A stretch of 64,000 nt of DNA from Nocardioides yefusunii (lineage in GTDB: Bacteria; Actinomycetota; Actinomycetes; Propionibacteriales; Nocardioidaceae). Under the pieces are notes generated by a model that saw nothing but the letters and a program-made list of their open reading frames with translations, did no database searches and was not told the DNA's origin. Both the position numbers and the translations under genes were made by a program. The stretch covers positions 1,302,001 to 1,366,000 of the forward strand of contig NZ_CP034929.1 in the NCBI RefSeq assembly GCF_004014875.1, in the 5' to 3' direction. Shown here one piece after another: positions 11,662 to 43,566 of this stretch (position 1 is the stretch's first letter; the number at the start of each line of letters is the position of its first letter).

Positions 11662-11677
11662 GTGGGGCAGCGGTGAC

Positions 11678-12785: not shown

Positions 12786-12875
12786 GTCTCGGTGAACAAG
12801 GTCACGAGACGCTGTTCACACGCCGTTCGTCCGGTTGTACTGGGCGCCACACGCACGAGCCACCCAGGAGTGCGC

Positions 12876-19277: not shown

Positions 19278-19289
19278 GAACGTTCGTTA
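19278..19289. promoter_or_regulatory. Candidate TetR operator, copy 1
   Basis: GAACGTTCGTTA, a near-perfect dyad with the core AACG-NN-CGTT, 168 bp before the acyl-CoA dehydrogenase start at 19457. It lies in an unusually AT-rich 335-bp intergenic stretch (19122-19456) that otherwise holds no gene. Confidence 0.5.
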
Positions 19290-19376
19290 GATTGAAAATG
19301 AGGTCGATTGATTCACGATTCACCCTGCGAGGCGGGCTTAGGCGCAAGAATCGTTCGATCGATTTTCTTCATTGCC

Positions 19377-19388
19377 TAACGATCGTTA
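19377..19388. promoter_or_regulatory. Candidate TetR operator, copy 2
   Basis: Perfect palindrome TAACGATCGTTA centred 75 bp before ATG 19457 and overlapping a possible -10 (TATGTA). A degenerate related sequence, ATCGTTCGATCGAT, lies just upstream near 19350. Confidence 0.6.
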
Positions 19389-19456
19389 TGTAACACTGTC
19401 GCTCGACAGGCCACGGTGATGCGACCACGCGTCACCTCGATCCGAGGGACTCTGCC

Positions 19457-20623
19457 ATGCCCATCAGCCCTACTCAGACCGCCTCGCCCGAGGAGCTTTC
19501 CGCGCTGCGCGACGCCGTGCGCGCCGTGAGCCAGAAGTACGGCCACGACTACTTCGTGACCAGCAGCGGGGACGGGAGCAACGCCCGTGCGTTCTGGGGC
19601 GAACTGGGAAGCATCGGCGCGCTCGGCGTCGCGATTCCCGAGGAGTTCGGTGGCGGCGGCCAAGGGCTCGAAGCGCTCGCCGTCGTGGCTGAGGAGATTG
19701 CTGCCAACGGCCTACCGATGATGCTCATCGCACTCTCGCCCGCGGTGTGTGCCACGATGCTCGCCGACCACGGCAGCGCGGCTCAGCAGCAGGAATGGCT
19801 TCCCGACCTGGCAACGGGGGAGAAGATCCTCGCCTTCGCGATCACCGAACCCGACGCCGGGTCCAACACCCACAACATCACCACCAAGGCCGTCTTCGAG
19901 GACGGTCAATGGGTGATCACGGGTCAGAAGTACTACGTCTCCCATGTCGACAACAGCGATGCTCTGGTCGTCATCGCCCAGGCCGAAGGTGGTCCGGATG
20001 GGCTCCCCGCCGGCCCCAAGGCCTTTCTGGTGCCTTCGGACGCGCCCGGCCTGACCCGCACCGAGATCCCGGTGGAGATCACCTCGCCCGAGAGCCAGTA
20101 CTCGCTCTTCTTCGACCGAGTCCAGGTCGCTGGCGACGCCATCGTGGGCGGCGAGAAGGGCCTCGGTGTTCTCTTCAGCGGGCTCAACCCTGAGCGCATC
20201 CTCAGTGCCGCACTCCTCAATGGCATCAGCCGCTACGCCATCGACAAGGCTGTCGCCTACGCCCGTGAACGCTCGGTGTGGGGCCAGCCGATCGGTGCAC
20301 ACCAAGCCATCGCCCACCCCCTCGCTCGCGCCGAGACGCGACTCGCGGCCGCGCGCTTGCTCACCCTCGAGTCGGCCCGCGCCGCCGATCGCGGTGAACC
20401 CGGCGGAGTTGCAGCAGCGATGGCGAAGGTGGAGGCGTCCGAGACCGCCGCGATGGCACTCGACGCCGCGATCCAGACCCACGGCGGCAACGGCATGGCG
20501 CGTGAGTACGGGCTCAGCACCTTGTCCGGCCTCGTGCGCTTGTTCCGCATTGCTCCGGTCAGCACCGAGATGATGCTCAACCACATCTCGCACAAGGCCC
20601 TGAAGCTTCCCCGGTCCTACTGA
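19457..20623 (+). CDS. Acyl-CoA dehydrogenase family protein
   Basis: 388 residues, start ATG 19457 behind GAGGG. Typical three-domain flavoprotein: FAD/substrate loop FAITEPDAGSNTHN (about 127-140), beta-domain GQWVITGQKYYVS, and helix G segment LNPERILSAA, whose Glu is the likely catalytic base by analogy with isovaleryl-CoA dehydrogenase. The C-terminal QTHGGNGMAREYG contacts FAD. It makes a 2,3-double bond in an acyl-CoA; the acyl group is unknown. First gene of a two-gene unit (TGATG coupling to the crotonase) behind two TetR-type operators. Confidence 0.9.
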   Translation: MPISPTQTASPEELSALRDAVRAVSQKYGHDYFVTSSGDGSNARAFWGELGSIGALGVAIPEEFGGGGQGLEALAVVAEEIAANGLPMMLIALSPAVCATMLADHGSAAQQQEWLPDLATGEKILAFAITEPDAGSNTHNITTKAVFEDGQWVITGQKYYVSHVDNSDALVVIAQAEGGPDGLPAGPKAFLVPSDAPGLTRTEIPVEITSPESQYSLFFDRVQVAGDAIVGGEKGLGVLFSGLNPERILSAALLNGISRYAIDKAVAYARERSVWGQPIGAHQAIAHPLARAETRLAAARLLTLESARAADRGEPGGVAAAMAKVEASETAAMALDAAIQTHGGNGMAREYGLSTLSGLVRLFRIAPVSTEMMLNHISHKALKLPRSY

Positions 20624-21327
20624 TGACCGCCTCGTCCTCGGATCGCGGTTGCACGGTCACCACTCACGACCGTCTGGTCCATCTGCGGTGGGACGGCACC
20701 CGAGCCAACGCGCTCGGGGCCGACCGGTACGACGTCCTCGTCGAGACCCTGCAGAGGCTCGACGAGGGGCACGTCCTGCTCGTCACTGCCGCAGGGCGTC
20801 ACTTCAGTGCCGGTCAGGACCTCGAGGAGTGGAATCACGGGTTGAGTGCCGGCATGACCGCCCAGATCCTGCGCCGCGGGACCGATGCCGTCCTCGGGCT
20901 CCTGGAGACGCCGGCGACCGTCGTCGTGGGCGTCAACGGTGCCGCTGTCGGCGGTGGCGCTCTCGTGGCGGCCGCCGCCGATCTGGTGGTGCTGGCCGAC
21001 GACGCACGGCTGCGCGTGCCCGAACTCGAACTGGGCATGCCGTTGGGCGCCTCTGTCCTGGCCAGGCTGGTCGGCAACCCCGCTGCCCGACGTCTGAGCC
21101 TCACCGGCGCGTGGTGCCCGGCCCGGGAGGTCGCTGTGCACGGAGGTGTCGAGGTCGTGGAGCCGCCATCGGTTCTGGAACGTGCCACCGAACTGGCACG
21201 TCGATGCCTTGACCAGGACCCGGTTGCCCGGGCCGCAGCCCGAAACTTGTTCGGTGACGGCGAGCGTCGTCGCGTCGCCGCGCTCTATCGAGCCGAGGTC
21301 GAGGCCACCCTGCGCCTGTTCAGCTGA
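20623..21327 (+). CDS. Enoyl-CoA hydratase/isomerase (crotonase) family protein
   Basis: 234 residues from ATG 20623, overlapping the dehydrogenase stop by one base. Crotonase fold: oxyanion loop HFSAGQDLEEW (about 65-75) and VNGAAVGGGALVAAAAD. The first catalytic glutamate of hydratases (G-x-G-x-E-L) is replaced: the sequence reads GGGALVA, placing Leu there. The second (PELELG) is kept. It may therefore catalyse isomerisation, hydrolysis or C-C cleavage instead of hydration. It is probably co-regulated with the island by the TetR operators. Confidence 0.85.
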   Translation: MTASSSDRGCTVTTHDRLVHLRWDGTRANALGADRYDVLVETLQRLDEGHVLLVTAAGRHFSAGQDLEEWNHGLSAGMTAQILRRGTDAVLGLLETPATVVVGVNGAAVGGGALVAAAADLVVLADDARLRVPELELGMPLGASVLARLVGNPAARRLSLTGAWCPAREVAVHGGVEVVEPPSVLERATELARRCLDQDPVARAAARNLFGDGERRRVAALYRAEVEATLRLFS

Positions 21328-21340
21328 AGGCTGCGCCGGA

Positions 21341-22510
21341 TCAGGTCCTGACGGCCGTGTGGCGCACCAGAGCCGTCAGGCCGACGGTCAGTGCACCAGC
21401 ACCCAGCAGGGCGAAGGCCACCGACGTCGACGCCACCAGCGGCGCGGCGAGGAATGCGGACAGGCCCAGCGTCGTGAACGGGACCAGCAGCCATGCTGCG
21501 TAGAGCTCGGCCCGGCGCTCCGGGGGAGCCCACGAGGACATCGCCGCTGCGGAGCCCAGAAGGGTGGCACCCGTTCCGGCTCCCAGTACCACCACCGCCA
21601 CGAGCGCGAGCACGGGTGAGCCGACGAAACTGCCGACGGCGAGCAACGCCCACCCCGTCACGGCGACCATGCCACCGCCGACCATGGCGCGCCGCGGGGG
21701 CCAGGAGCCGCCTGCCATCTGGGCCACGGCGATCGAGAACAGCAGCACCGAGACGAACACTCCGTTGAGAGTGCTGCCCTGCCAGCCCACCGAACGAGCC
21801 ACCTCGGGGCTGAACGCCCCCATGAGCCCGGTGCACAGGTTGGTGATCGCCACGGCCGCCGCACTCGCCACGAACGGGCGCGCGAGTTCGCGGGGTACCC
21901 GGACGCGGCGCACCAGTGGGGCACCCGGGGTGCGTGGCGTCCTGGGGGAGAACGCGGCGAGCACCATCGGCACCAGCACCATCAGCGCAACCACCCAGTA
22001 CGGGGAGCGCAGCGGGTTCGGCATCTGGTCGGCCACCAGTCCTGCGACCAAGGGACCGAAGGCGACTCCGAGGCTCACTGATGCGGTGTTGAACTGCGAG
22101 CCTGCCTCGACGCCCTTCGGGTGGAGCTCCATCAGGGCGGACGCGGCCGCGGTGGAGACCAGGGCGACACCGAGGCCCTGAATGAACCGGCCGACCACCA
22201 TCACGCCCAAGGAGGGTGCGACGGAGAGCAGCATCAGACCCGTGATCAACACCGTTCCGCCGAACAGGATGGTGCGGCGTCTCCCGATGACGTCGGAGAG
22301 TCCGCCGAGCAGAGTCAGGCAGAAGACCACGCCGGCGGGGTAACCGGCGAAGATCAGCGACACTCCGCCGCTGCCGATGTCGAAGAGCTCCTGGTAGTCG
22401 GGATACAGAGGGGTGGGCGTGAAACTGGCCAGCATGATGACGCCGGGCGCGATTGCTCCGGCGCTGAGCAGGGCTCGCGTGCCACGGGGGGACGTCGAGG
22501 AGGGCCTCAT
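21341..22510 (-). CDS. Major facilitator superfamily transporter
   Basis: 389 residues from ATG 22510 (ATGA overlap with the VOC gene upstream). About twelve membrane helices; the MFS loop 2-3 signature is present as GGLSDVIGRRRTILFG (about 67-82). The helices near 130-150 hold QFNTASVSLGVAFGPLVAGL, as in drug-efflux/sugar-type carriers. Likely a proton-coupled exporter or importer for an island substrate or product. Last gene of the minus-strand trio ACAD-VOC-MFS. Confidence 0.85.
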   Translation of the reverse strand: MRPSSTSPRGTRALLSAGAIAPGVIMLASFTPTPLYPDYQELFDIGSGGVSLIFAGYPAGVVFCLTLLGGLSDVIGRRRTILFGGTVLITGLMLLSVAPSLGVMVVGRFIQGLGVALVSTAAASALMELHPKGVEAGSQFNTASVSLGVAFGPLVAGLVADQMPNPLRSPYWVVALMVLVPMVLAAFSPRTPRTPGAPLVRRVRVPRELARPFVASAAAVAITNLCTGLMGAFSPEVARSVGWQGSTLNGVFVSVLLFSIAVAQMAGGSWPPRRAMVGGGMVAVTGWALLAVGSFVGSPVLALVAVVVLGAGTGATLLGSAAAMSSWAPPERRAELYAAWLLVPFTTLGLSAFLAAPLVASTSVAFALLGAGALTVGLTALVRHTAVRT

Positions 22511-23409
22511 CGGCGCTGGTGCAGGTCGAAGACCGCTCCGTAGGCGGAGACCAGACCCAGACGGGAGACGCCGTCGACGACGTGACGTCCGGTGACCCGT
22601 CCGTGGACGCCACCCGCCAGCTGTGCCTCGACCCGATCGAGGTCGTCGACCGCCACGCGTGCGATCACACGGTGCACGGGATCGGGGGAGCGTTCGGAGG
22701 TGATCGCCTCGCCGAACTCGAGACGAGCATTGGCGGACGTCGCGCCGCGGTAGAGCGCACCGATGAACCCTTCGCCGGGATCGAGAGCGAGCATGGCCTC
22801 CACGCCGGGGCCGTCGAAGCGGCCCACGAAGTACTCCTGGCCGCCCAGGATCTCGCGAGCGAAGGCGCGGGCGTCCTCGAACCGGTCGGTCATGAAGACG
22901 GCTGCCGCCACCTCGGAAATGTCCTCGGCCGGTGCCTGGTCCAGGACACATCGGGTGCCGCGGGGACGGTGCTGGACGAAGGCATGCAGGAGGCCTGAGT
23001 CATCTTGGATGAGCATCCGCTCACGCACGGGGATCGTGGTGCCGGGCAGCTCGTAGTGGACGGCCTCGGTCACGAACCTCCGGCCCGCGGTGGTGCACCG
23101 GTCCTCCACTGCCGCGGCGTCGCGCAGATAGAAGTCCAGTGCGTAGGGCCCGGCGCGGTCGGGGCGTCCAGCGGGGTCGGCGGGGGGTAGGCCGGGGGTG
23201 AGGGCGAGGCGAAGTGCGCCGCCCGATGCCCCCGGCTTGGTGAGTAACACCTCTTCGGTGACTGCAGCAGGGAGATCCCACAGCTCTGCCAGGTGGGGGC
23301 TGGCGGGGTGGCGGGAGGCAAGGGTGAAGCCCATGAGGTCGCGGTAGAGGTGCAGTGGCTCGTCCAGCGAAGCGACAGGGAGGACCAGCTCGTCGATGCC
23401 GTCGAACAT
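22507..23409 (-). CDS. Two-domain VOC family protein
   Basis: 300 residues from ATG 23409, 1 bp after the acyl-CoA dehydrogenase stop. Two VOC halves: residues 1-140 (FDGIDELVLPVASL, later LLHAFVQHRP) and 165-300 (VAAAVFMTDRFEDARAFARE, ending YGAVFDLHQ). The usual first-strand metal ligand His is missing in both halves (DELVLPV, AAAVFMT). It may be a metal-free binding protein, or use other ligands. Cotranscribed with an acyl-CoA dehydrogenase and a transporter, so a role in the same catabolic pathway is likely; reaction unknown. Confidence 0.7.
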   Translation of the reverse strand: MFDGIDELVLPVASLDEPLHLYRDLMGFTLASRHPASPHLAELWDLPAAVTEEVLLTKPGASGGALRLALTPGLPPADPAGRPDRAGPYALDFYLRDAAAVEDRCTTAGRRFVTEAVHYELPGTTIPVRERMLIQDDSGLLHAFVQHRPRGTRCVLDQAPAEDISEVAAAVFMTDRFEDARAFAREILGGQEYFVGRFDGPGVEAMLALDPGEGFIGALYRGATSANARLEFGEAITSERSPDPVHRVIARVAVDDLDRVEAQLAGGVHGRVTGRHVVDGVSRLGLVSAYGAVFDLHQRR

Positions 23410-23410
23410 C

Positions 23411-24577
23411 TCAGTAGCTCCTGGGGAGGCCGGCGTCCTCGGCCACGAGGTTGCGGATCATCTCGTTGCTGATCGGACTGAAGAGTTGGAGGCGGGCGTC
23501 ACGGAAGTACATCTGCATCGACGACTCCTCGGCCAGGCCCATGGCACCCATCACCCGCATGCAGCGGTCGACGATCCGGGCGGTGGTCTCGCTGGCGACG
23601 AGCTTGGCCATGCCGGCCGCGGTGATCGCCTCGTGCCCGCTCTCGATGCGGTCCACGACCTGGTCGACGAGGGCGCGGGCGGCCTGTAGTTCGGCCAGGC
23701 TGTCGGCGAGGGGATGGGCCACTGCCTGCAGCGAACCGATGGGCGCACCGAAGGCCTCGCGTTCCCCGGCGTAGGTGAGGGCTGCGTCGAGGGCTGCACG
23801 ACCGATGCCGAGGCTGATTGCTGCGGCCATGACGCGCTCGACGTCGAGTGCCTGCGAAAGCATGCGTAGGCCCTTGCCGCGTTCACCGACCAGGTGGGAC
23901 TCGGGAGCGACAGCGTCGTCGAGGAAGACTTCGCAGGTGCCGGCCGCACGCATTCCGGCCAGGTGGACGCGCCGGATCTGGACGCCGGGCTGGTCGACGA
24001 GGACTGTGATGAGGCTGAGCCCGCGGGCTCTGCGGCCCTCGGGGGCGGGATCGGTGCGCGCCAGGACGTGGATGACGTCGGCTTCCTGGGCGAGGGAGAT
24101 CCAGGTCTTCTGGCCGTCCAGATGCCACTGTCCGTCCCGGAGCTCGGCCCGGGTGCGCAGCGCGAGCAGGTCGGTGCCGACGCCTGGTTCGGAGAGGCCG
24201 AAGCTTCCGATGGACGCCCCTGACGCAACCCGGGGGAGCGCCTCCGAGATCGAACCGCAGGCGGGGTCGGCGAGCATCCGCATCGCCATGCCGCTGAGAA
24301 CGTGGTCGACGGAGAGGCTGGGTAGGCGCCGGGCGATCTCCTCGGTGACCGCCACCGCGTCGCCGACGGTGCCGCCGCTGCCGCCCAGTGCTTCGTCGGC
24401 GCCGATGCCGAGCAGTCCTGCGGCTCCGAGCGCCTCCCAGGTCGGCCTCGGAAAGGTGCCGGTCCGGTCGTGCTCCAGGGCCTCCTGCGGTGTCAGGTGG
24501 CGGTCGAGAATCTCGGTCACCAGGGCGCGCAGGGCAGCGCGGTCCTCGCTCTCGAGGAGGGGCCGGGTAGTCAGCAT
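23411..24577 (-). CDS. Acyl-CoA dehydrogenase family protein
   Basis: 388 residues from ATG 24577 with GGAGAA. Domain features: FGLSEPGVGTDLLALRT (FAD/substrate loop, about 130-146), GQWHLDGQKTWISLA, LDVERVMAAAISLGIGRAAL with the likely base Glu in VER, and AMGLAEESSMQMYFRDAR near the end. It is only a distant relative of the 19457 protein, so the two probably work at different steps. It leads the minus-strand trio and is divergent from the ABC importer operon, sharing the operator at 24637. Confidence 0.9.
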   Translation of the reverse strand: MLTTRPLLESEDRAALRALVTEILDRHLTPQEALEHDRTGTFPRPTWEALGAAGLLGIGADEALGGSGGTVGDAVAVTEEIARRLPSLSVDHVLSGMAMRMLADPACGSISEALPRVASGASIGSFGLSEPGVGTDLLALRTRAELRDGQWHLDGQKTWISLAQEADVIHVLARTDPAPEGRRARGLSLITVLVDQPGVQIRRVHLAGMRAAGTCEVFLDDAVAPESHLVGERGKGLRMLSQALDVERVMAAAISLGIGRAALDAALTYAGEREAFGAPIGSLQAVAHPLADSLAELQAARALVDQVVDRIESGHEAITAAGMAKLVASETTARIVDRCMRVMGAMGLAEESSMQMYFRDARLQLFSPISNEMIRNLVAEDAGLPRSY

Positions 24578-24636
24578 GGCAGTTCTCCGTCAACGCTCTG
24601 GATCGGGGAGGTTACGCGTCTGATGAACACGAAACA

Positions 24637-24648
24637 TAACGATCGTTC
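24637..24648. promoter_or_regulatory. Candidate TetR operator, copy 3
   Basis: TAACGATCGTTC, 60 bp upstream of the minus-strand acyl-CoA dehydrogenase start (24577) and 180 bp upstream of the ABC importer operon start (24828). It could control both directions. Confidence 0.55.
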
Positions 24649-24723
24649 GCCTTACACGCTAGGCAAAACGCGTCTGGGTGGTGCTCGATTCGCTGAGATT
24701 CAACAGAGATTCAAAAATCTTCC

Positions 24724-24735
24724 GAACAATTGTTC
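24724..24735. promoter_or_regulatory. Perfect 12-bp palindrome in the divergent promoter region
   Basis: GAACAATTGTTC, 93 bp before ATG 24828. It keeps the AAC-N4-GTT frame of the other operators, so it may be a weak copy. It also fits the GAAC-N4-GTTC core of actinobacterial LexA boxes, but lacks the outer bases. Confidence 0.35.
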
Positions 24736-24827
24736 TGAAACCGTTGTTCGTGTGGCCGGGCTCACATACGTTTACGTCCGACATATACGAGCGGCCTCCG
24801 GGCCGGAGCACTTGATTTGGAGTCGAC

Positions 24828-26444
24828 ATGCGTTCACGAGTGATGCGTCGCGTCGCAGGAGTGGCCACGATGGCCCTTGCTGCTTCGGCCCTGGTGGCCT
24901 GTGGTGGTTCCGGTGACACTGCCGCCGACAAGGGTGCCGACGGCACCCTGACCCTCGCGTGGAGTTCCACCCCGACCCAGCTCGACCCCAACGTCTACAC
25001 CGGCCTCAGCTGGGTGCACGCGGTCGACGGGTTCATGGAGAACCTGGTTGAGTACGACACCTCCAAGGCCTCCGACGACGCCGTCCTGGGCGTCGACGCC
25101 GTCAAGCCGGGTCTCGCGGAATCGTGGGAGATCAGCGAGGACGGCCTGCAGTACACCTTCAAGCTCCGCGAGGGCGTGAAGTCGCAGTACGGCAACGTGC
25201 TCAGCGCCGACGACGTCATGTGGTCCTTCGAGCGCATGTACTCCAACCCGGCAGCACTGTCCTCGGGTGTCCTGCTGAAGTCGGCCAACGTCGACCCGGA
25301 CGAGCCGGTCACCAAGATCGACGACCTCACCGTGCGGGTCAACCTGCTCAAGCCGTCCGCGATCGCGCTCTCCGTCCTGGCCTACCCGGTCGACGGCATC
25401 CTCGACTCCGTCGAGGCGAAGAAGCACGCCACCGCCGACGACGAGTGGGCCGGCAAGTGGCTCGCCAACAACTCCGCCTCCTTCGGTGCCTATAAGTTGA
25501 AGACGCTCGACCCGGGCAAGGAGATCCGTCTCGAGTACAACGAGAACTACTACGGCGAGAAGCCGGAGATCACCGAGATCATCGCCAAGGCCGTGCCGGA
25601 TGCGTCGGCCCGCGCCCAGCTGCTGATGTCGGGTGACGTCGACGCGATCACCGAGCCCCCGCTCGACCAGCTGAAGAAGATCGACGAGAGCGCCAACGCC
25701 GTCGTCTCGATCCAGCCCGACTCCAACCGTCACAACATCTCGTTCAACCTGGGCGACAAGAAGGTGGCCGACGCGCGCGTCCGCAAGGCGATCAGCCACG
25801 CGATCAACCGCGAGGAGATCGCAGCCTCCATCTACCAGGGCTACGCCGAGCCGGCCCACTCCCCGCAGGCCTCGGGCCTCCTCGCGGGCCAGCCCGAGAC
25901 CGGCAAGTACGACCCCGAACTCGCCAAGAAGCTGCTCGCCGAGGCAGGGTACGCATCCGGCCTCGACATCGAACTCTCCTTCTCGACGGCCCGCCCCGGC
26001 CCGTTCGCGGAGAACCTCGCCCGCCTCGTGCAGTCCGACCTCAAGGCCGTCGGCGTCAACGCCACCGTCAAGGCCGTCCCGTCGCCGGCCGACTTCGAGG
26101 CAGCCGTCGCCGAGCGCACCATGCCGGCCTACCTCTACACCGAGCGCCCGTCGCAGCCCGACCTCGGCTTCTCGCTGTTCCTCTACCTGCACAGCGGATC
26201 CGCGCTCAACAAGATCGGCTACGCCAACGACGAGTTCGACTCGATCATCAACAAGGTGCTGATCACCGAGGCCGGTCCCGCACGTGACGCCGCAATCGAC
26301 GAAGCGCTGCAGATCGTCGTCGACGAGGAGCCGATCATCTCGCTGGTCGAGGTCCCCGACCTCGTCGGCATGAGCGACGACCTCGAGGGCTACGTGTCGC
26401 TGCCCACCGGTGGCATGAAGTTCGACGAACTCAAGCGAGGCTGA
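24828..26444 (+). CDS. ABC transporter substrate-binding lipoprotein, family 5 (oligopeptide/nickel type)
   Basis: 538 residues from ATG 24828 with GGAG. Lipoprotein signal with ALVAC (Cys25). Family 5 features: LTLAWSSTPTQLDPNVYTGL at the start of the mature part, LAESWEISEDGLQYTFKLR, then VRKAISHAINREEI and FDELKRG at the end. Such proteins bind peptides but also sugars, bile acids, aromatic acids and other organics outside the membrane. Being followed by CoA-pathway genes, this one likely binds an organic carboxylate, ester or conjugate rather than a nutrient peptide (inference). First gene of an operon that runs to about 35754. Confidence 0.9.
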   Translation: MRSRVMRRVAGVATMALAASALVACGGSGDTAADKGADGTLTLAWSSTPTQLDPNVYTGLSWVHAVDGFMENLVEYDTSKASDDAVLGVDAVKPGLAESWEISEDGLQYTFKLREGVKSQYGNVLSADDVMWSFERMYSNPAALSSGVLLKSANVDPDEPVTKIDDLTVRVNLLKPSAIALSVLAYPVDGILDSVEAKKHATADDEWAGKWLANNSASFGAYKLKTLDPGKEIRLEYNENYYGEKPEITEIIAKAVPDASARAQLLMSGDVDAITEPPLDQLKKIDESANAVVSIQPDSNRHNISFNLGDKKVADARVRKAISHAINREEIAASIYQGYAEPAHSPQASGLLAGQPETGKYDPELAKKLLAEAGYASGLDIELSFSTARPGPFAENLARLVQSDLKAVGVNATVKAVPSPADFEAAVAERTMPAYLYTERPSQPDLGFSLFLYLHSGSALNKIGYANDEFDSIINKVLITEAGPARDAAIDEALQIVVDEEPIISLVEVPDLVGMSDDLEGYVSLPTGGMKFDELKRG

Positions 26445-26447
26445 CCC

Positions 26448-27512
26448 ATGGCCCTGGCTCCGGTGAAGGGCGCCGTACTGCGCACCCCGCGAGGGGTGAA
26501 CGCGCCGTGGCGCCTCGTCCTCGGACGCCTCGGGTTCCTCGTGGCCGCACTCTTCGGGGTGATGACGCTGTCCTTCCTCCTGGTCAGCGTCACCCCCGGA
26601 GATCCGGCCCGTCTGATCGCCGGCCCGTTGGCCAGCGACTCCCAGGTTGAGGCGATCGAGACCGAACTCGGTCTCGATCGCCCCCTGGGGGAGCGCTACG
26701 TCGACTACGTGTCCGGTCTGGTCAGGGGCGACCTGGGTGTCTCCTACTACTCCAAGCAGCCGATCGTCGACGAGATCGCCTCGAAGCTTCCCGCCACGCT
26801 CACCCTCGTCCTGCTGTCGGTCGTGCTCGCTGCGGTGATCGGTGTGCTCGTCGGTTCTGTCGGCGCCTACTTCCGTGGACGCTGGCCCGACTCCGTCGGC
26901 CGCCTCTTCACGGGCATCTTCCAAGCCGTCCCGGACTTCTTCCTCGGCCTGATCCTGATCTACCTCCTCTTCTTCGTGGCCGGCATCGCGCCGGCACCGG
27001 CCGGGCAGCTGGCCTTCTCCGAGAGCCCGCCGCCCAAGGTCACCGGCGCGATCCCGATCGACGCCCTGATCGCAGGCGACATGGCGCTCTTCGCCTCATC
27101 CCTGCAACACCTCGTGCTGCCGGTCCTGACTCTGGGACTCGTCTACGCGGCCTACTTCGCCAAGACCGCCCGCACCACCGTCGGCCGTGCCCTGAACTCT
27201 CAGCAGGTGCACTTCGCCCGCGCCATGGGGCTCAAGGAACGCACCGTCCTGCGGTACGCCTTCGTCGAGTCGCGCACCACCATCGTCACCTACGCAGGCG
27301 TCATCTTCGCCGCCCTGCTCGGTGGCGAAGCGATCGTCGAGAAGGTCTTCGCCTGGGACGGCATCGGCACCTGGGCGCTCAACGGAATCCTCCGCCTCGA
27401 CCTCCCGGTCGTCCAGGGCATGGTCCTCGTGGCCGGTGCCCTGACCCTGATCACCTACACGCTGCTCGACATCGTCGTCGGGCTCCTGGACCCGAGGATC
27501 AAGCATGCCTGA
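26448..27512 (+). CDS. ABC transporter permease, DppB/OppB type
   Basis: 354 residues from ATG 26448, 3 bp after the binding-protein stop. Six predicted membrane helices, first near residues 22-45 (LRLGFL region, FLLVSVTPGDPA). GLDRPLGERYVDYV and the EAA loop ALNSQQVHFARAMGLKE are diagnostic of DppB-like permeases. An N-terminal extension of about 20 residues precedes helix 1. Partner of the 27505 permease, which it overlaps by 8 nt. Confidence 0.92.
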   Translation: MALAPVKGAVLRTPRGVNAPWRLVLGRLGFLVAALFGVMTLSFLLVSVTPGDPARLIAGPLASDSQVEAIETELGLDRPLGERYVDYVSGLVRGDLGVSYYSKQPIVDEIASKLPATLTLVLLSVVLAAVIGVLVGSVGAYFRGRWPDSVGRLFTGIFQAVPDFFLGLILIYLLFFVAGIAPAPAGQLAFSESPPPKVTGAIPIDALIAGDMALFASSLQHLVLPVLTLGLVYAAYFAKTARTTVGRALNSQQVHFARAMGLKERTVLRYAFVESRTTIVTYAGVIFAALLGGEAIVEKVFAWDGIGTWALNGILRLDLPVVQGMVLVAGALTLITYTLLDIVVGLLDPRIKHA

Positions 27513-30878: not shown

Positions 30879-31669
30879 TGAAGTCCGGGTACGTTGACGG
30901 CCCCTGGGGCCAGATCCACTACCGCAGCAGCGGAATCCGCGGCCCATGGGTGGTTCTCTTCCACGAGTCGCCGCTCTCCTCGGTCGTCTGGGAGAAGGTC
31001 ATGTCGCACCTCGGCGACGGCGTGCGCGTCATCGCCTTCGACACCCCCGGCTACGGGGCGTCGAATGCTCCGGCCGGGCCCGACACCGAGATCCCGGAGT
31101 ACGCGGCTGTGCTCGCAGCAGCCACCCTCGACCTCGGTGTCACCGACCCGGTCTTCTGCGGCCTCCACACCGGCGCATCGATCGCCATCGAGGCAGCACG
31201 GCTCTTCGGCGAACGTTGCCCGGGCGTCGTCCTCAGCGGCGTCGCCCTCTACGACGCCGAGGAACGCGCCGAACACCTGGCCAACTGGGCGCCCGACGTC
31301 GAGAAGACGATGCACGGCGATCAGTTCTCGTGGGCAGTCGAACGCTATCGACGCATCTGGCCCGGTCTCGACGAGGAGATGCTGCACCTGGCATCGCTCG
31401 AGGCGCTCCGCGTGCTACCGCGCTATCACTGGGGGTACCGCGCTGCGTTCCGCCACGACCCCGCCGAGTCACTGGCCGCCCTCGACGTCCCCGTACTGCT
31501 GCTCGACGCGGAGTTCGACCTGCTCGCCGACAAGGACGCCGTCGCACTGGCCACCGCGAAGGACGCTCGACTCGTCGTCCTGCCCGGGCTCCACGGCCAA
31601 CCACACCTGCGCGCGCCCGCTGAGTACGCCCAGCACCTGCGTACCTTCGTCGACAAGGTCGCCCGATGA
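30878..31669 (+). CDS. Alpha/beta hydrolase fold protein with non-standard nucleophile elbow
   Basis: 263 residues from ATG 30878 (an in-frame GTG at 30875 also fits). Oxyanion region VLFHESPLSS (about 26-35), FDTPGYGAS, and the expected Asp (LDAEFDLLAD) and His (GLHGQPHLRAP) loops are present. The elbow, normally G-x-S-x-G, reads G95-L-H-T-G99, so the serine is replaced by His97. It could be a lyase or a water-activating hydrolase without covalent intermediate. A few alpha/beta hydrolases have G-x-H-T-G elbows. Coupled to the next crotonase by ATGA. Confidence 0.8.
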   Translation: MKSGYVDGPWGQIHYRSSGIRGPWVVLFHESPLSSVVWEKVMSHLGDGVRVIAFDTPGYGASNAPAGPDTEIPEYAAVLAAATLDLGVTDPVFCGLHTGASIAIEAARLFGERCPGVVLSGVALYDAEERAEHLANWAPDVEKTMHGDQFSWAVERYRRIWPGLDEEMLHLASLEALRVLPRYHWGYRAAFRHDPAESLAALDVPVLLLDAEFDLLADKDAVALATAKDARLVVLPGLHGQPHLRAPAEYAQHLRTFVDKVAR

Positions 31670-32469
31670 CCGTGGTGCTGCGCGAGGTCCGTGACCAGGT
31701 CATGTACCTGACCCTCCACGGCCCCGAGACGCTCAACAGCATGACGCCCGAGGCGATGACCGGTTTCGAGGAAGCACTCGACGAGGCCGAGGCTGACACC
31801 TCGTTGCGAGCGGTGCTGATCACCGCGTCCGGCGAGCGCGCTTTCAGCGTGGGCATCGACATCACCTTTCTGGGGGAGTGCTTCGGGGATCCCCAAGGCG
31901 TCTTCCTGCCCTATCTGGACCGCTTCCACGCAGTCCTGCGGCGCATCGAACTGCTTCCGGTGCCGGTCGTGACGGCGGTCAACGGACTGGCTCGCGCCGG
32001 TGGCTTCGAGATCATCCTGGCCAGCGACCTCGTGGTGGTCGCGGAGGAAGCGAAGATCGGTGACATTCACCTGCAGTTCGGCGTGCCGCCCGGTGCCGGT
32101 GCCAGCCAGCGGGCCGCCCGCAAGCTGGGCGACCAGAAGGCCAAGGCGCTGATGCTCACGTCGAAGTGGCTCGACGCCGCCACCGCCGTGGCGTGGGGGC
32201 TCGCGTTGGAAGCCGTCCCGCGGACTCACCTCATGGCTGCTGCCGAGGCCCTCGTCGACACGCTGCGTGGCCTCTCCCGACCCGGAATCGCGGCCACCAA
32301 GCTGACCGTCGCGGCAGCTCAGGACCTTTCGCTGGCCGATGGTCTGGCTTACGAGCGGAAGATCTTCGCGAAGTTCCTCACGAGTGAGGGCGCAGCGGAG
32401 GGATATCTGGCCTTCGTGGAGAAACGTGAACCGAGATGGGAAGACGCTGATGTCAGCCACCTACGTTGA
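31666..32469 (+). CDS. Enoyl-CoA hydratase/isomerase (crotonase) family protein
   Basis: 267 residues from ATG 31666. Crotonase features: AFSVGIDITFL (CoA/oxyanion loop) and VNGLARAGGFEIILASD, which keeps the first catalytic Glu. The second position, usually P-E-x-x-L-G, reads GDIHLQFG, so that Glu is His. This is the mirror image of the loss seen in the 20623 crotonase. The reaction is thus uncertain: isomerase, decarboxylase or ring-opening are all possible. Overlaps the MaoC-like gene by 20 nt. Confidence 0.85.
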   Translation: MTVVLREVRDQVMYLTLHGPETLNSMTPEAMTGFEEALDEAEADTSLRAVLITASGERAFSVGIDITFLGECFGDPQGVFLPYLDRFHAVLRRIELLPVPVVTAVNGLARAGGFEIILASDLVVVAEEAKIGDIHLQFGVPPGAGASQRAARKLGDQKAKALMLTSKWLDAATAVAWGLALEAVPRTHLMAAAEALVDTLRGLSRPGIAATKLTVAAAQDLSLADGLAYERKIFAKFLTSEGAAEGYLAFVEKREPRWEDADVSHLR

Positions 32470-32869
32470 GACCGATTCCGTCCAGGTCGACGCCGACCTC
32501 GTGAGCACCGTCGTGGGGCGCGGTGGATACACCCACCCGCTCTTCGACGTCGCCACCCACGGCGAGTCCACACCGCTCCCCGGCCAGGGCGTCCTGCTGC
32601 TGGCCGGCGGACTCGTCGAACAGTCTGGCGTGCTCGACGACGCCGTCGCACTGCTGGAGATGAAGTCGGTCCGATTCACCCAGATGGTCCGCGCCGGCGA
32701 CACCCTGCGGGTCCGGGTGACGCCCGGCTCCCACCGTGCCACCAGCAGCGGCAAGCACGTCCAGGAGTTCGCCTGGCAGATCGTCGTCGTCGCGTCCCCT
32801 CACGGCGTCGACACGGTGGCCGAGGCGGACATCGTCATGTTGATGAACACACCCGTCCCAGGAGTCTGA
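32450..32869 (+). CDS. MaoC-like hotdog-fold dehydratase
   Basis: 139 residues from ATG 32450, inside the end of the previous gene. A single hotdog with GRGGYTHPLFD near residue 24, the region that holds the hydratase Asp/His in MaoC proteins. Later strands are MKSVRFTQMVRAGDTLRVRV and VQEFAWQIVVVA. Probably hydrates or dehydrates an enoyl/hydroxyacyl-CoA, which would supply the hydratase step that the odd crotonases may lack. The stop abuts the GTG of the ligase gene. Confidence 0.7.
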   Translation: MSATYVETDSVQVDADLVSTVVGRGGYTHPLFDVATHGESTPLPGQGVLLLAGGLVEQSGVLDDAVALLEMKSVRFTQMVRAGDTLRVRVTPGSHRATSSGKHVQEFAWQIVVVASPHGVDTVAEADIVMLMNTPVPGV

Positions 32870-34417
32870 GTGTCCCTGAAACTGAACATGGCCAACGGCG
32901 TGCGCGAGTTCGCTCGCTCCGCCCCGCACCGGATCGCCGCCGTCGAAGGCGACCGGAGCCTGAGTTTCGCAGCGATGGACGACCGGTCCAGCCGCCTCGC
33001 CCAGGGCGTCCTCGCGCTGGGCTGCGGACCGGAGAAGCCGGTCGCGGTGCTCGCCGGCAACCGGATCGAGTACTTCGAGATCATGACGGCCATGGCCAAG
33101 GCCGGTGTGCCCGTGGTGCCGCTCAACTCGCGCAACTCCAGCCTCGACAACGAGTTCATCGTCGCCCACTCGGGTGCACGGGTCCTGATCGTCGACCCGG
33201 CGCTCGCCCACAACGCCTCGACGTTCATCGAGTCGATGGACGCCGTGATCGCGTTCGCCGGGTCGGGCGCGGGCGACGTCGGTCGTGACTACGAACTGTT
33301 CCTCGACACCCAGCGTGCCGTCGACCCGAAGGCGCAGGTCGGTGACGACGACGTCTTCTGCATCACCTACACCTCAGGGACCACAGGCCGCCCCAAGGGC
33401 GTCGTCCTGACCCACAGGGGCCGACTCCTCACCGCCTACGGTGCCGCGATCGAGTACGGACTCGGGCCTGGCAAGCAGACCATGGCCGTGGCGCCGCTCT
33501 ACCACGGTGCCGGATTCTCGTTCGGCTTCGCCGGCCCCCAGTTGGGCGGTCAGGTGACGGTCCAGACGAAATGGGACCCCGAGGAGTTCCTGTCGCTGCT
33601 GCAGTCCTCGCGCACGTCGACGGTCTTCCTGGTTCCCACCCATGCGCAGCAGATCCGGCGGATCGTCGAGGAGCCCGCTGGTGCTTACGACCTGTCGGCG
33701 CTGGAGACCCTCTACTTCAACGCCGCCGCATTGCCGGTCGAGCTGAAGGAATGGGTGCACCAGGCGTTCCCCGGGGTGGGCATCCACGAGCTGTACGGCT
33801 CCACCGAGTGTTCCCTGGTGACCGACCTGCGCCCCGAGGACTCGATGCGCAAGGCCGGATCGGTGGGCCACCCGTGGTTCATGAACGAGGTCAAGCTCCT
33901 CGACGACGACCGCAACCCGGTCGCGCCGGGTGAACCCGGTGAACTGTGGGCTCGTTCGCCGATGCTGATGAAGGAGTACCTCAACAACCCCGAGGCGACC
34001 GCCGAGGCCACCGACGACGAAGGATTCATCAGTGTCGGTGACGTCGCCGTGGCCGACGAGGAGGGCTTCATCTCGATCGTGGACCGCAAGAAGGACATGA
34101 TCATCGCCGGAGGCGTGAACATCTTCCCGCGCGAGATCGAAGAGGTCATCGGACGTCACCCTTCGGTCGACGAGGTCGCCGTGGTCGGCGTCCCCGACGA
34201 GACATACGGCGAACGGATCGCCGCGTTCGTGGTGCCCACCGCCGGCGCAGTCGTGGACGTCGAGGCACTCCAGCAGCACGTCGCCGCTGGGGTCGCGAAG
34301 TTCAAGCTGCCCCGTGAGTGGCACACCCTCGACGCATTGCCCCGCAACGCCGGCGGAAAGGTGCTCAAGCGCGTCATCCAGGACGACTACGTCGCTGCCC
34401 GCATCGAGCCCGCCTGA
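32870..34417 (+). CDS. Acyl-CoA synthetase (AMP-forming ligase)
   Basis: 515 residues from GTG 32870. ANL-family motifs: TYTSGTTGRPKGVVLTH (P-loop, about 166-182), LYGSTECS (A5), DRKKDMIIAGGVNIFPREIEE split over about 400-420 (A8 hinge), and GGKVLKR with the adenylation Lys near 500. Activates a carboxylic acid with ATP and CoA; chain type cannot be read. Likely the entry step for the imported substrate or a downstream acid in the island pathway. Confidence 0.93.
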   Translation: MSLKLNMANGVREFARSAPHRIAAVEGDRSLSFAAMDDRSSRLAQGVLALGCGPEKPVAVLAGNRIEYFEIMTAMAKAGVPVVPLNSRNSSLDNEFIVAHSGARVLIVDPALAHNASTFIESMDAVIAFAGSGAGDVGRDYELFLDTQRAVDPKAQVGDDDVFCITYTSGTTGRPKGVVLTHRGRLLTAYGAAIEYGLGPGKQTMAVAPLYHGAGFSFGFAGPQLGGQVTVQTKWDPEEFLSLLQSSRTSTVFLVPTHAQQIRRIVEEPAGAYDLSALETLYFNAAALPVELKEWVHQAFPGVGIHELYGSTECSLVTDLRPEDSMRKAGSVGHPWFMNEVKLLDDDRNPVAPGEPGELWARSPMLMKEYLNNPEATAEATDDEGFISVGDVAVADEEGFISIVDRKKDMIIAGGVNIFPREIEEVIGRHPSVDEVAVVGVPDETYGERIAAFVVPTAGAVVDVEALQQHVAAGVAKFKLPREWHTLDALPRNAGGKVLKRVIQDDYVAARIEPA

Positions 34418-34453
34418 CCCGGAACATCCCCCCCGATCGCCAGGAGTACGCCG

Positions 34454-35020
34454 ATGGCACGCCCCACCTCGCTCGACCTGACCGACCTCTCCGACGCGGG
34501 CCAGCGGTGGCGTCGAGTCCCGATGGACGGTGCCAACGTCGGCATCGACGTCGTTCCGCTCGCCTCGCACCCCGACGACTTCGTGATCCTGGCGAGATTC
34601 CCCGCCGGGTTCGAACGTCCGGTGGCCGGGGGGTACAACGCCGCGGAGACCTTCCTGGTCCTCGACGGAGAGCTCCAGCTCAACGGGACGACCGTGCGTC
34701 GCGGGGACCTCACCCACGTCCCGGCAGAGATCGTGCGCAACGGCATGTCGACCGCCGGCGGTTGCACGGCGCTGGCCTGGTTCTCCGGTCCGGCGACGTT
34801 CCTCACGCCCGACGAACTCGGCGAGTGCACGTTGGCCGTCAGCACTGAACGCGTCGACGACACCACGCCGACCGGAGCCGTCCTGGCCACTCCCGAGGCC
34901 CACTGGACGTTGGCCGCAGGCGCTCAGGGAGAGTGCGTCGACGTGGGCCTCACCCGGTGGACCGTCGAGGCTGCCCCCGCCGTCGGTGAAGGTGCCTCGT
35001 TGGTGCGGACGCGGCGATGA
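34454..35020 (+). CDS. Cupin-domain protein
   Basis: 188 residues from ATG 34454 behind AGGAG. A cupin barrel around residues 45-110 (ILARFPAGFERPVAGGYNAA, ETFLVLDGELQLNG, RRGDLTHVPAEIV), followed by a second weaker beta-rich half. The normal His ligands of cupin motif 1 are mostly missing. Function unknown; the gene is coupled to the thioesterase by ATGA and shares the operon with the 30027 bicupin. Confidence 0.65.
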   Translation: MARPTSLDLTDLSDAGQRWRRVPMDGANVGIDVVPLASHPDDFVILARFPAGFERPVAGGYNAAETFLVLDGELQLNGTTVRRGDLTHVPAEIVRNGMSTAGGCTALAWFSGPATFLTPDELGECTLAVSTERVDDTTPTGAVLATPEAHWTLAAGAQGECVDVGLTRWTVEAAPAVGEGASLVRTRR

Positions 35021-35754
35021 TCGCGCCCCACGACTGGCGAGGTCAGGAAGGGCTCTACGGCGGCAAGGTCGTCGCGATGCTCGCCGACCTCCTCACCGCG
35101 ACCGACGTCGGTGACCGGCTGGCCCTGGCATCGGTGTGGGCCGAGTTCACCGGCGCTGTGGTTCCGGGGGAGACCGAGGGCACCGTCGAGGTGCTGCACC
35201 GGGGGCGCAGCACCGCTCTGGTGCGGGCGGCCCTGCGACAGGACGGCCGCGCCAAGGCCAGCGCTGTGGCCAAGTTCGCCGCCGCGGGCCAGGGCGACAA
35301 GCTCTCCCCCCGGACGTTGCCGCCGGCACCTCCGGCGGCCGACGTCGTCGACTACGACGCCCCGTGGGGCCACCTGCCCTACGACCCGAAGCTGCAGCTC
35401 AAGGTGATCGACCAGGAGACCCGCGACGGCGTCCTCACCACCCGTGCCTGGCTACGGGTGCGTCCCGGCCATGGTGACGACCTCGGGGAGGGCGGTGTCG
35501 AAGCGGTCCTTCTCGACCTGCTGCCGCCGGGCCTCTTCGCCCTGGAGGACAAGCCAGCCTTCGTCCCGACGGTCGACTTCGCCATGCACCTCAATCCTTC
35601 GCACCGGGCCGAGGCCGGACGGTGGTACTGGGGCGAGATGCGCACCGAGTGGTCCGACGGCGCGTTCTGCTGCGACACCGGCGAGATCCGTACCACTGAG
35701 GGGGCCTTCGTGGCGCGTGGTACCCAGAACCGGCGCGTCGTCGACGCGTTGTGA
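35017..35754 (+). CDS. Acyl-CoA thioesterase-like double-hotdog protein
   Basis: 245 residues from ATG 35017. Two hotdog halves: LYGGKVVAMLADLLTA with EVLHRGRSTALVRA, then LLDLLPPGLF, FVPTVDFAMHL and ARGTQNRRVV. The same blocks in the same order occur in the 50406 protein (GGRV, HRGRST, LLDVLPPG, FVPTVDFSMHL, RGTQNR), so the two are paralogues of a TesB-like thioesterase group. Expected to release CoA from an acyl-CoA. Last gene of the island operon, followed by a strong terminator. Confidence 0.78.
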   Translation: MIAPHDWRGQEGLYGGKVVAMLADLLTATDVGDRLALASVWAEFTGAVVPGETEGTVEVLHRGRSTALVRAALRQDGRAKASAVAKFAAAGQGDKLSPRTLPPAPPAADVVDYDAPWGHLPYDPKLQLKVIDQETRDGVLTTRAWLRVRPGHGDDLGEGGVEAVLLDLLPPGLFALEDKPAFVPTVDFAMHLNPSHRAEAGRWYWGEMRTEWSDGAFCCDTGEIRTTEGAFVARGTQNRRVVDAL

Positions 35755-35772
35755 CGGTGCCGGAGACCACGC

Positions 35773-35812
35773 GCATCTGCCCGGTCACCCCGAGGGGTGA
35801 CCGGGCAGATGC
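35773..35812. terminator. Strong bidirectional terminator
   Basis: A perfect 19-bp stem (35773-35791 with 35794-35812) between the convergent island operon and the tannase-family gene. The hairpin itself closes the operon; there is no T run. Confidence 0.85.
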
Positions 35813-35828
35813 CTTCAGACCTTGGGGA

Positions 35829-37688: not shown

Positions 37689-37765
37689 GTCAACTCCTGT
37701 CGCAGACCCCTCGGCGAGGGGAGGTGGCGTCACCCTAGGAACGCGCGGACCCGCCTGCGAAGTGC

Positions 37766-37779
37766 AAAGTACGGACTTT
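37766..37779. promoter_or_regulatory. Candidate operator between the esterase and GntR genes
   Basis: AAAGT-ACGG-ACTTT, an inverted repeat with 4-nt spacer, 78 bp upstream of the esterase start (37688) and 71 bp upstream of the GntR start (37850). It suits a GntR dimer controlling both. Confidence 0.4.
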
Positions 37780-37849
37780 CGTGGCGCCCAGCGAAGGGCG
37801 AGAATGAGTGGTCCGGCGGCCGTGTTCCGAGGGTTCTGGGAGCGATCGG

Positions 37850-38506
37850 ATGAGCCGCGTCGGGTGGCAGCCGCTCCGGGTCCGCAGCGTCGCGGACCAG
37901 GTGGCCGATGCGTTGCGCGGAGAACTCCGGGAACGCGCCCGTGTCGGGGCTCTCAAGCTCCCCCCGGAGACCGAACTTGCCGAGCAGCTGGGCATCAGCC
38001 GCGGATCTCTCCGACTGGCCCTGCGACGTCTCGCGGCCGAAGGCATTGTCGAGTCCCGTCGTGGGGCCCGCGGGGGGACGTTCGTGGTCGACACCAGCCC
38101 GGCCCGCGCAGCTGACCCGGATGCAGAAGCAGTCACGGTCGACGCGGCCATGGCCGGACGGATGGCCCTTGAGGTCTCGGCGGTGCGGGCCGCAGCCGTC
38201 GATCCACGGGTGGCCGACCGCTGGAACGAACTGGTCGACGACGAGCGCTACTCCTTCGAACGCAACCGCGCCTTCCACGAGAGCCTCCTGCGGGCCACCG
38301 GCGGTCCGTTGTGGACCCGTATGGCGGAACCGTGGTTCGAATGGGCCCTCGTCGTCCAGGCGCGCCATCCCGAACCGCCGTGCGGCACGAAAGTCCGCGA
38401 CGACCACCGGGAGATCGTCGACGCCGTCAGAGCCTGCGACGCCGACCTCGCCGGCGAGGCGATGATCCGGCACCTGAAATGGGTGGGGGAGACCTACCGG
38501 GGGTGA
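37850..38506 (+). CDS. GntR/FadR-type transcriptional regulator
   Basis: 218 residues from ATG 37850, preceded by GGGAG; a GTG at 37808 would add 14 residues. Winged helix with PETELAEQLGISRGSLRLAL (about 43-62) and LAAEGIVESRRGARGG, then an FCD-like helical domain (RNRAFHESLLRATGG, VRDDHREIVDAVRA with metal-type His/Asp). Divergent from the esterase gene and separated from it by a short inverted repeat. A local regulator of the esterase is the simplest reading. Confidence 0.87.
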   Translation: MSRVGWQPLRVRSVADQVADALRGELRERARVGALKLPPETELAEQLGISRGSLRLALRRLAAEGIVESRRGARGGTFVVDTSPARAADPDAEAVTVDAAMAGRMALEVSAVRAAAVDPRVADRWNELVDDERYSFERNRAFHESLLRATGGPLWTRMAEPWFEWALVVQARHPEPPCGTKVRDDHREIVDAVRACDADLAGEAMIRHLKWVGETYRG

Positions 38507-38513
38507 GGAACGC

Positions 38514-39167
38514 TCAGGCAGGCGTGAGGCCTGTCATCCGGCTCACGATCCACAGGATCTGGTCGGCCACCTCGTCGTGGGTGGCACCCGGGTGCGGCCG
38601 CACCCGGTTGGCGTTGTCACAGAGCGTCAGCACGGCGCGCGACAGGGGATAGGCGTTCTCCTCGCCGCCCAAGGACGCGATCAGCGACTCCACGTAGCCG
38701 TAGTACATGAGTCGGCCGACCCGGAAGGACTCCCGAGCCGATTCGTCGAGGGCGTCGTTCGTTCCCAGACCGCCGAAGGCGGCCTGCCATCCGAGACCGC
38801 GCGAGCCGTTCTCCAACTGCCATGACACGTGCCGGCGCACCAACGTCTCGAACTGCTCGCGGTGCGACATCTCCGGTGTCAGGGTCGCCGACAGATGGGC
38901 GAGGAACTCCTGCAGGATGTCACGCAGGCCCTCCTCCAGAATCTGCTGCTTCCCTTGGGGAAAGTGTCCGTACATGCTGCCGGCCTGGACGCCCACCTCA
39001 GCCGCGATGGCACGCATCGACGTGCCGCCGTACCCGAGCTGGGTGAAGAGAACCATCGCCTTCTGCACGATGGTGCGGCGGGTTCCCTCGGGGTCGGGAA
39101 GACGATTGTCGCGGACGTGAACGATCAGGCTCAGCAGGTGCGATTCCGGGGAGCGACGTTCGGGCAT
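38514..39167 (-). CDS. TetR-family transcriptional regulator, likely regulator of the catabolic island
   Basis: 217 residues from ATG 39167. N-terminal helix-turn-helix about residues 28-75: IVQKAMVLFTQLGYGGTSMR, IAAEVGVQAGSMYGHFP, QGKQQILEEGL. The C-terminal ~140 residues are a helical ligand domain without named signature. An exact -10 box lies 6 nt before the ATG, so the mRNA is probably leaderless. A dyad at 39214, of the same type as the three before island genes, lies 47 bp upstream of the start. Acyl-CoA or pathway-acid release of repression is the usual mode; this is inference. Confidence 0.88.
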   Translation of the reverse strand: MPERRSPESHLLSLIVHVRDNRLPDPEGTRRTIVQKAMVLFTQLGYGGTSMRAIAAEVGVQAGSMYGHFPQGKQQILEEGLRDILQEFLAHLSATLTPEMSHREQFETLVRRHVSWQLENGSRGLGWQAAFGGLGTNDALDESARESFRVGRLMYYGYVESLIASLGGEENAYPLSRAVLTLCDNANRVRPHPGATHDEVADQILWIVSRMTGLTPA

Positions 39168-39173
39168 GGGGAG

Positions 39174-39179
39174 ATTCTA
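39174..39179 (-). promoter_or_regulatory. -10 box TAGAAT for leaderless TetR transcript
   Basis: TAGAAT on the minus strand, 6 nt before ATG 39167. Confidence 0.6.
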
Positions 39180-39213
39180 GGGCCGAGAGGGCGCCTGTGT
39201 GACCACCTCGTCC

Positions 39214-39225
39214 GAACGACCGTTA
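39214..39225. promoter_or_regulatory. Candidate TetR operator, copy 4 (autoregulatory)
   Basis: GAACGACCGTTA, 47-58 bp upstream of the TetR start. Same KAACGNYCGTTM pattern as copies 1-3. Confidence 0.55.
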
Positions 39226-41340: not shown

Positions 41341-41469
41341 GGGGCTCTCCTGTGGAACAGATCTCGCAGCTCCCTGATGGAGTCCACGGACAGGATCAGG
41401 CTAACCGCTGAACACTCCGATCTGCGCTGTGGCGGCCGTCACTCCGCAGCCTTGACGTCGTTGCATGCC

Positions 41470-41475
41470 TAGACT
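41470..41475 (+). promoter_or_regulatory. -10 box TAGACT for leaderless nadE transcript
   Basis: Six nt before GTG 41482; no Shine-Dalgarno. Confidence 0.5.
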
Positions 41476-41481
41476 CGCTGC

Positions 41482-43566
<2,085 letters not shown>

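Follow-up and report, generated by a model that had tools for sequence, protein, structure and literature searches.

The closest described counterparts of the system treated here are TetR-family repressors of catabolic genes. The system lies in a 64,000-nt stretch of the Nocardioides yefusunii genome (contig NZ_CP034929.1, positions 1,302,001 to 1,366,000), which we call the window and whose coordinates are used unless stated otherwise. It comprises a catabolic island, a TetR gene beyond its end, and four dyads with the core AACG-NN-CGTT, three of them at island promoters and one upstream of the TetR gene. The product of that gene, P0002, is proposed to bind the dyads.

PaaR (TTHA0973) of Thermus thermophilus HB8 is described as a TetR repressor of phenylacetate catabolism with the pseudopalindrome CNAACGNNCGTTNG (PMC6651687, PMC9493321). 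Its sites are placed at promoters of catabolic genes, among them the promoter of the operon that encodes it, and later selection work is cited for another consensus, AACnAACGTTnGTT (PMC6651687). The island regulator is likewise of the TetR type, and the core of the PaaR operator is found in all four dyads; the outer C and G of that operator are both present just at 39214, and on one side only at 19278, 19377 and 24637. The effector of PaaR is phenylacetyl-CoA. The scan of island genes turned up no phenylacetyl-CoA epoxidase (paa) genes, and therefore the island regulator is not classed as PaaR.

The mycobacterial BkaR (Rv2506 / MSMEG_4718) is reported as a dimeric, autoregulated TetR repressor of branched-chain keto-acid genes, with two operators in one divergent promoter and repression of the neighbouring acyl-CoA genes (PMC3920632). 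Similarly, P0002 is an actinobacterial TetR protein encoded beside acyl-CoA genes, and 6yj2 is among the fold matches to its model. However, the BkaR operator, GTTA(N)T(N4)A(N)TAAC, marks leucine-type genes in this genome rather than the island. Its GTTA and TAAC ends occur together in none of the four island sites, and no carboxylase gene was seen among the island genes scanned. AibR, KstR2 and FasR are also fold neighbours (5k7z, isovaleryl-CoA; 4w97; 6o6n, C20-CoA), but they are only 17–20% identical to P0002, and their operators differ from the island dyads. The island TetR and its operators are a further case of a known regulator type.

Dyads and TetR genes in eight related islands

The letters and positions of the four dyads are as given in a preliminary description of the window, and the core is present in each; no strand is assigned to these or to the other palindromes below. 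Two stand before the gene of acyl-CoA dehydrogenase 1 (ACAD1), namely the distal GAACGTTCGTTA (19278..19289) and the proximal TAACGATCGTTA (19377..19388), the latter 68 nt from the ACAD1 start at 19457. The third, TAACGATCGTTC (24637..24648), lies between the gene of acyl-CoA dehydrogenase 2 (ACAD2, minus strand, start at 24577, 59 nt away) and the first importer gene (plus strand, start at 24828, 179 nt away). The fourth, GAACGACCGTTA (39214..39225), is 46 nt upstream of the TetR start at 39167. The four dyads are real and not chance palindromes. The pattern KAACGNYCGTTM gives seven strand hits in the window, corresponding to these four sites, whereas 100 shuffled versions averaged 0.10 and never exceeded 2. 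The three gaps at the promoters (335, 250 and 89 bp; 674 bp in total) contain four exact copies of KAACGNNCGTTM, and no more than one occurred in any of 20,000 Markov-simulated sets. A further AACGNNCGTT core at 4481 fits the K and M ends (GAACGCACGTTC) but not the Y of the consensus first proposed, and it falls in a likely reading frame.

The initial list of sites was incomplete, having missed a related dyad of the form AACA-NN-TGTT, GAACAATTGTTC (24724..24735), which is 87 bp from the 24637 site and 92 nt before the importer start. It has counterparts with one mismatch at 88 bp from the main dyad in one relative (G129) and 89 bp in another (G062), and nothing under two mismatches was found in the five TetR-less islands scanned. 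It is a possible, weaker TetR site. The ACAD1 promoters also have dyad pairs, 99 bp apart in the window's genome (G000) and 78 bp apart in G129, where the second member has two mismatches. The pair spacings of 78–99 bp correspond to 7.43–9.43 helical turns, with fractional parts of 0.29–0.48. This gives only a hint of looping between the dyads, since three of the five spacings are homologous.

Six of 214 genomes of the genus and six of 391 genomes of the order gave a match for the importer binding protein, two of the latter being new and from another genus. The resulting set comprises eight islands, that of the window and those of seven relatives. Three have the TetR gene (G000, G062 and G129), and in the other five the DNA read gave no TetR match. 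The islands of G062 and G129 are syntenic with that of the window, and each has the TetR gene at its end. In G129, the methionine aminopeptidase gene (MAP) adjoins prenyltransferase/carotenoid genes (UbiA); the island does not lie between them but is ~37 kb off. The TetR gene thus travels with the island, because it stays at the island end there. That MAP and prenyltransferase/carotenoid stretch of G129 (L060, 1399-4725) is an empty counterpart of the place that the island occupies in the window.

The dyads co-occur with the TetR gene. In the gap between ACAD2 and the importer, KAACGNNCGTTM is exact in all three TetR-bearing islands, and the core of the 24637 site is kept in the alignment of G000, G062 and G129. 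The best matches in the five TetR-less islands are two (G178, G257) or three mismatches away from KAACRNNYGTTM, although that pattern is looser; the importer gene of G178 has a VOC gene as its divergent neighbour. By simple counting, which ignores kinship, such a perfect 3-versus-5 split has a probability of 1/56. Upstream of ACAD1, there are 0, 0 and 1 mismatches in the TetR-bearing islands (the 19377 dyad being exact in G129 and one mismatch off in G062) and two or three in the four TetR-less islands scanned; G257 was left out because its ACAD1 match is only 34–36%. The proposal of one TetR-type operator class tied to this TetR is therefore supported at the ACAD2/importer promoter, with 3/3 against 0/5.

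A matrix built from the relatives' four sites ranks 19377, 24637, 19278, 24724 and 39214 as the top five positions of the whole window, with scores from 29.8 down to 16.1 for 39214, the weakest of the four reported sites; the next score is 12.2. The independent part of this result is in the flanks and in the rank of 24724, since the relatives' sites were chosen by the same core. The converse matrix, made from the window's sites, gives scores of 19.0–25.4 at the expected promoters in G062 and G129, whereas nothing in the five TetR-less island stretches exceeds 13.9.

The TetR protein and its probable targets

P0002 (38514..39167, minus strand) is a protein of 217 aa with an N-terminal helix-turn-helix matching PF00440 TetR_N (E=2.9e-12, 46.6 bits against a cut-off of 24). 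The predicted structure is all-helical with a mean pLDDT of 84.5 and has the usual TetR fold. Its solved neighbours in the PDB are TetR-type regulators, with DarR first and AibR, KstR2, BkaR and FasR included. None of 17 listed NCBIfam models reaches its cut-off, and the fold leaves the ligand unnamed because the best match, DarR, responds to c-di-AMP. Within the genus, four of 215 genomes, that of the window among them, have a match at E<=1e-30, and the same four were recovered among 341 genomes of the family. Identity is 78% in G129, which has a second such protein at 43%, 59% in G062 and 39% in G023; the 78% and 59% matches are orthologues encoded in the syntenic islands. The second P0002-like TetR (L059 ~9344-10006 in G129, L039 ~9760 in G023) is encoded near a homologue of window 41401-43689, and its recognition helix is similar (MQAASIYGHFP versus VQAGSMYGHFP). 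Comparison of G023 and G129 did not find targets for these 39–43% identical proteins.

From the sites and the gene content, we infer a scheme in which P0002 would be a local repressor of the island, binding the dyads as a dimer. The operator would have the form KAACG-NN-CGTTM, flanked outward by G or T and, beyond that, predominantly by G. The putative targets are the ACAD1 promoter with its two sites and the divergent ACAD2/importer promoter with the strong site at 24637 and the weaker one at 24724; P0002 may also bind upstream of its own gene in this genome. Judging by gene content, the acyl-CoA ligase of the island would form a CoA thioester that is the likely inducer and, once bound, would release the repressor. 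Binding of P0002 to the dyads, with repression of the two ACAD promoters at a minimum, is in our view quite probable. Control of the importer operon is somewhat favoured, and autoregulation is somewhat less likely than not. Promoter-like hexamers (39203-39174) lie just downstream of the 39214 dyad and end 7 nt before the TetR ATG, and therefore the transcript would be leaderless. Scans with a promoter consensus found this one match before tetR and none at the two catabolic promoters.

Exact copies of KAACGNNCGTTM are not scattered over other promoters of the genome, which is one contig of 3,321,975 bases (3.32 Mb). There are 12, compared with 6 for a reversed control pattern. Eight are outside the island promoters, and six of these fall in likely reading frames (L002, L004, L009, L010, L011 and L012, of which L004 is the 4481 match). 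L003 is in a long perfect hairpin, as judged by eye, and L001 precedes the start codon (ATG) of an enoyl-CoA hydratase gene by ~35 nt. Allowing one mismatch gives 212 matches compared with 126 for the control. About the first hundred were listed, and four of these were inspected: two are in reading frames, one is the mccB site discussed below, and one (L119) is in a gap between an HpcH/HpaI-aldolase-like gene and a GNAT gene. Among the relatives, 4 of 6 exact matches outside the island were inspected in G062, 3 of 5 in G129 and 9 of 13 in G023, and several lie outside the frames retained by the filter.

Several observations weigh against the reading of P0002 as repressor of a single, autoregulated regulon, as it was first described. 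The TetR-bearing islands form one clade (100/100), so the contrast in TetR and dyads amounts to one joint gain, a single evolutionary event. The site before tetR is exact only in G000; that of G062, with two mismatches, is at chance level, and G129 has none within two mismatches. In addition, 39214 does not stand out by score, since at 16.1 it compares with 15.9 for L010, which is in a reading frame (as is L012 at 13.3). An exact match with island-type flanks, CACACTAACGCTCGTTAGGCC, stands outside the island of G129 before an FAD-binding_2 gene (L109 2018; genome 2362517), and therefore the regulon may be wider in that genome. Presumably there are other TetR proteins in the genome. Finally, the importer operon promoter contains a second conserved palindrome, and an orthologous GntR regulator accompanies most of the islands. 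The designations autoregulated and single thus need qualification.

Other regulators that might account for the sites

The second palindrome, TATGTCNGACATA, is present with 0–2 mismatches before the importer gene in all eight islands, five of which are without TetR. GntR operators of the GT-N-AC type are known, and TATGTCNGACATA is probably a GntR operator; its link to the island GntR is our inference. The window's copy, TACGTCCGACATA (24773..24785), is one mismatch off and is the proposed GntR operator of the importer operon; in G088, a palindrome of this type also precedes a cupin-thioesterase-ACAD1 group. The two-mismatch copy in G262 is weak, because five copies with three mismatches are expected per window by chance. 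An orthologue of the island GntR is found in 7/8 islands, with 54–82% identity among the relatives. In this genome, it is absent from its position after the ligase gene. The GntR/FCD regulator encoded at 37808..38506 (plus strand) shares, by BLAST, 32–36% identity with the island GntR of the relatives, or 41% over the HMMER alignment (E=6.6e-22), and a closer relative is encoded elsewhere in the genome at 1631061 (41%, E=5.2e-47). For the GntR of G129, TATGTCTGACATA is a candidate operator sequence.

It may then be asked whether TetR governs just the two ACAD operons, with the importer/ligase operon under a GntR-type regulator acting through TATGTCNGACATA and the site upstream of tetR being non-functional. 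The prevalence of the palindrome and of the GntR orthologue speaks for this, as do the position of 24637, closer to ACAD2 than to the importer gene, and the lack of a site within two mismatches before tetR in G129; the GntR relative at 1631061 could still act on the palindrome here. On the other hand, the second dyad, AACAWWTGTT, is exclusive to TetR-bearing islands and sits 92 nt before the importer gene, and the window's genome has no GntR orthologue at the usual position and a palindrome that is one mismatch off. On balance we find this division of labor unlikely. That the island GntR protein itself binds the AACG-NN-CGTT dyads is very improbable: a GntR gene does lie within or next to every one of the eight islands, but five islands with GntR are without the dyads, and it is the different palindrome that accompanies GntR. 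Some likeness to SOS boxes exists as well. The LexA consensus is GAAC-N4-GTTC; the dyad at 24724 reads GAACAATTGTTC, matching it, and GAACGNNCGTTC repeats in G023 resemble such boxes. However, none of the four reported sites has GAAC and GTTC on both sides, and the island genes are catabolic, which makes LexA binding scarcely credible. Chance palindromes would fit the fact that 6 of the 12 exact genome matches are in likely reading frames, but we give this negligible weight in view of the shuffle and Markov statistics, the matrix ranks, and the conservation at both promoters in two relatives. There remains a BkaR-like TetR of leucine catabolism, whose operators have the same core. This genome has GTTAACGATCGCTAAC before mccB (L148 10898) and GTGAACGATCGTTAAC before an enoyl-CoA hydratase gene (L149 10189), and the mycobacterial operator is given as GTTA(N)T(N4)A(N)TAAC (PMC3920632). 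The outer bases differ, however. The island sites score 16.1–29.8 by the island matrix and 1.9–16.0 by a leucine matrix, while four leucine-type sites score 6.9–11.0 and 30.3–32.7, respectively (in-sample). Moreover, in G088 a leucine-type dyad precedes the hydratase gene, yet the 40 kb surrounding the island contain no AACGNNCGTT. Assignment of the island sites to such a regulator is therefore improbable, and the preferred binder of the island dyads remains P0002.

The leucine-type sites show that the AACG-NN-CGTT core, which had been offered as the marker of the regulon, is not diagnostic alone, as it is contained there within a longer dyad. The L148 operon (10898-15658; genome 160897-165657) has a carboxyltransferase (Pfam) followed by biotin-carboxylase-like and HMG-CoA-lyase-like genes (by eye), which is a leucine catabolism operon by content. 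It has a common dyad, GTTAACGNNCGYTAAC (or GTGAACG...), with the widespread enoyl-CoA hydratase of L149, and together they would make a probable BkaR-like TetR regulon. In G129, the longer dyad is between an acyl-CoA dehydrogenase gene and a biotin-carboxylase-like gene.

An enoyl-CoA hydratase gene with the site GGTGAACGATCGTTAACC before it, at genome position 262190, was considered as a further target of the island regulator. It has matches in 203 of 214 genomes, and the 30 best loci were looked at. In the genomes that encode a P0002-like TetR, which account for four of the loci, a site with 0–1 mismatch lies close upstream; the other 26 loci have none there, although one of the 26 (L099) has a one-mismatch match at ~−83. 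The candidate was rejected. The four supporting loci are one clade (99/97) with other outer bases, and the TetR-less G088 has the leucine-type dyad at that position too. The hydratase is left out of the island regulon because its dyad is of the longer leucine type, fitting the GTTA...TAAC frame of BkaR.

As a separate matter, G023 has seven repeats of the type TCGAACGNNCGTTCAT (L101-L104 and L106-L108, L101 being a variant), which are possibly SOS boxes or belong to another regulon.

Island gene content and a possible succession of regulators

The island (19457-35754) is a movable gene block that probably takes up and degrades an acid. By spacing, it would be organized in three operons. One consists of ACAD1 (19457..20623, plus strand) and the enoyl-CoA hydratase ECH1 (20623..21327, plus). 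The second is leftwards and has ACAD2 (23411..24577), a glyoxalase/VOC-fold protein (22507..23409) and an MFS transporter (21341..22510), all assigned, like ACAD1 and ECH1, by Pfam. The transporter has a tblastn match in all seven relatives' islands, partial in G178. The third is a rightwards set of 12 genes, of which the first five (24828..30030) encode an ABC importer of the peptide/nickel class, with the binding protein (24828-26444), two permeases (26448-27512, 27505-28353) and two ATPases (28350-29201, 29188-30030). The other seven (30027..35754) encode a cupin (30027-30878), an alpha/beta hydrolase (30875-31669), an enoyl-CoA hydratase (31666-32469), a MaoC-like protein just below the Pfam cut-off (32339-32869), the acyl-CoA ligase (32870-34417), a protein without a Pfam match that is cupin-like by eye (34454-35020) and an acyl-CoA thioesterase (35017-35754). 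With the TetR gene, the island has 18 genes, near the ~16 first claimed for the regulon.

After the island come the GntR gene, the TetR gene and then methionine aminopeptidase. Between the island and the regulator genes is a tannase/feruloyl-esterase-family gene with a C-terminal fn3 domain (35829-37733), which has no counterpart match in the seven relatives' island stretches; the plus-strand frame at 35751-37853, on the strand opposite to it, looks spurious. In G062, an extra gene, Asp/Glu racemase-like by eye (L038 ~13030-13905), lies between the TetR-type site and ACAD1. In G262, the gene of the binding protein occurs a second time close to the island (contig 1, 3144977-3146578), accompanied by thioesterase and cupin-like genes.

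TetR and its operators would have joined the island in one single event, at a time when the importer operon was already equipped with a GntR-type operator. It is conceivable, and we offer it tentatively, that this is a regulator takeover caught midway. A GntR-run island (TATGTCNGACATA) would have gained TetR and paired operators, possibly with two bound dimers looping the DNA between them. In the genome of the window, the original GntR gene would since have left its place, its operator would be decaying, and TetR would be acquiring an operator of its own.

The type of control is ordinary, yet it would show a newer regulator superimposed on an older one. It is clear that AACG-NN-CGTT alone defines no single regulon here; the outer bases split the island sites from the leucine-type ones. 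With eight related islands that have or do not have TetR, it is possible to trace how a regulator is gained along with its operators and how an older one is lost, and the proposed P0002–dyad pair supplies a testable regulator and operator for an uncharacterised uptake-and-degradation island in Nocardioides.

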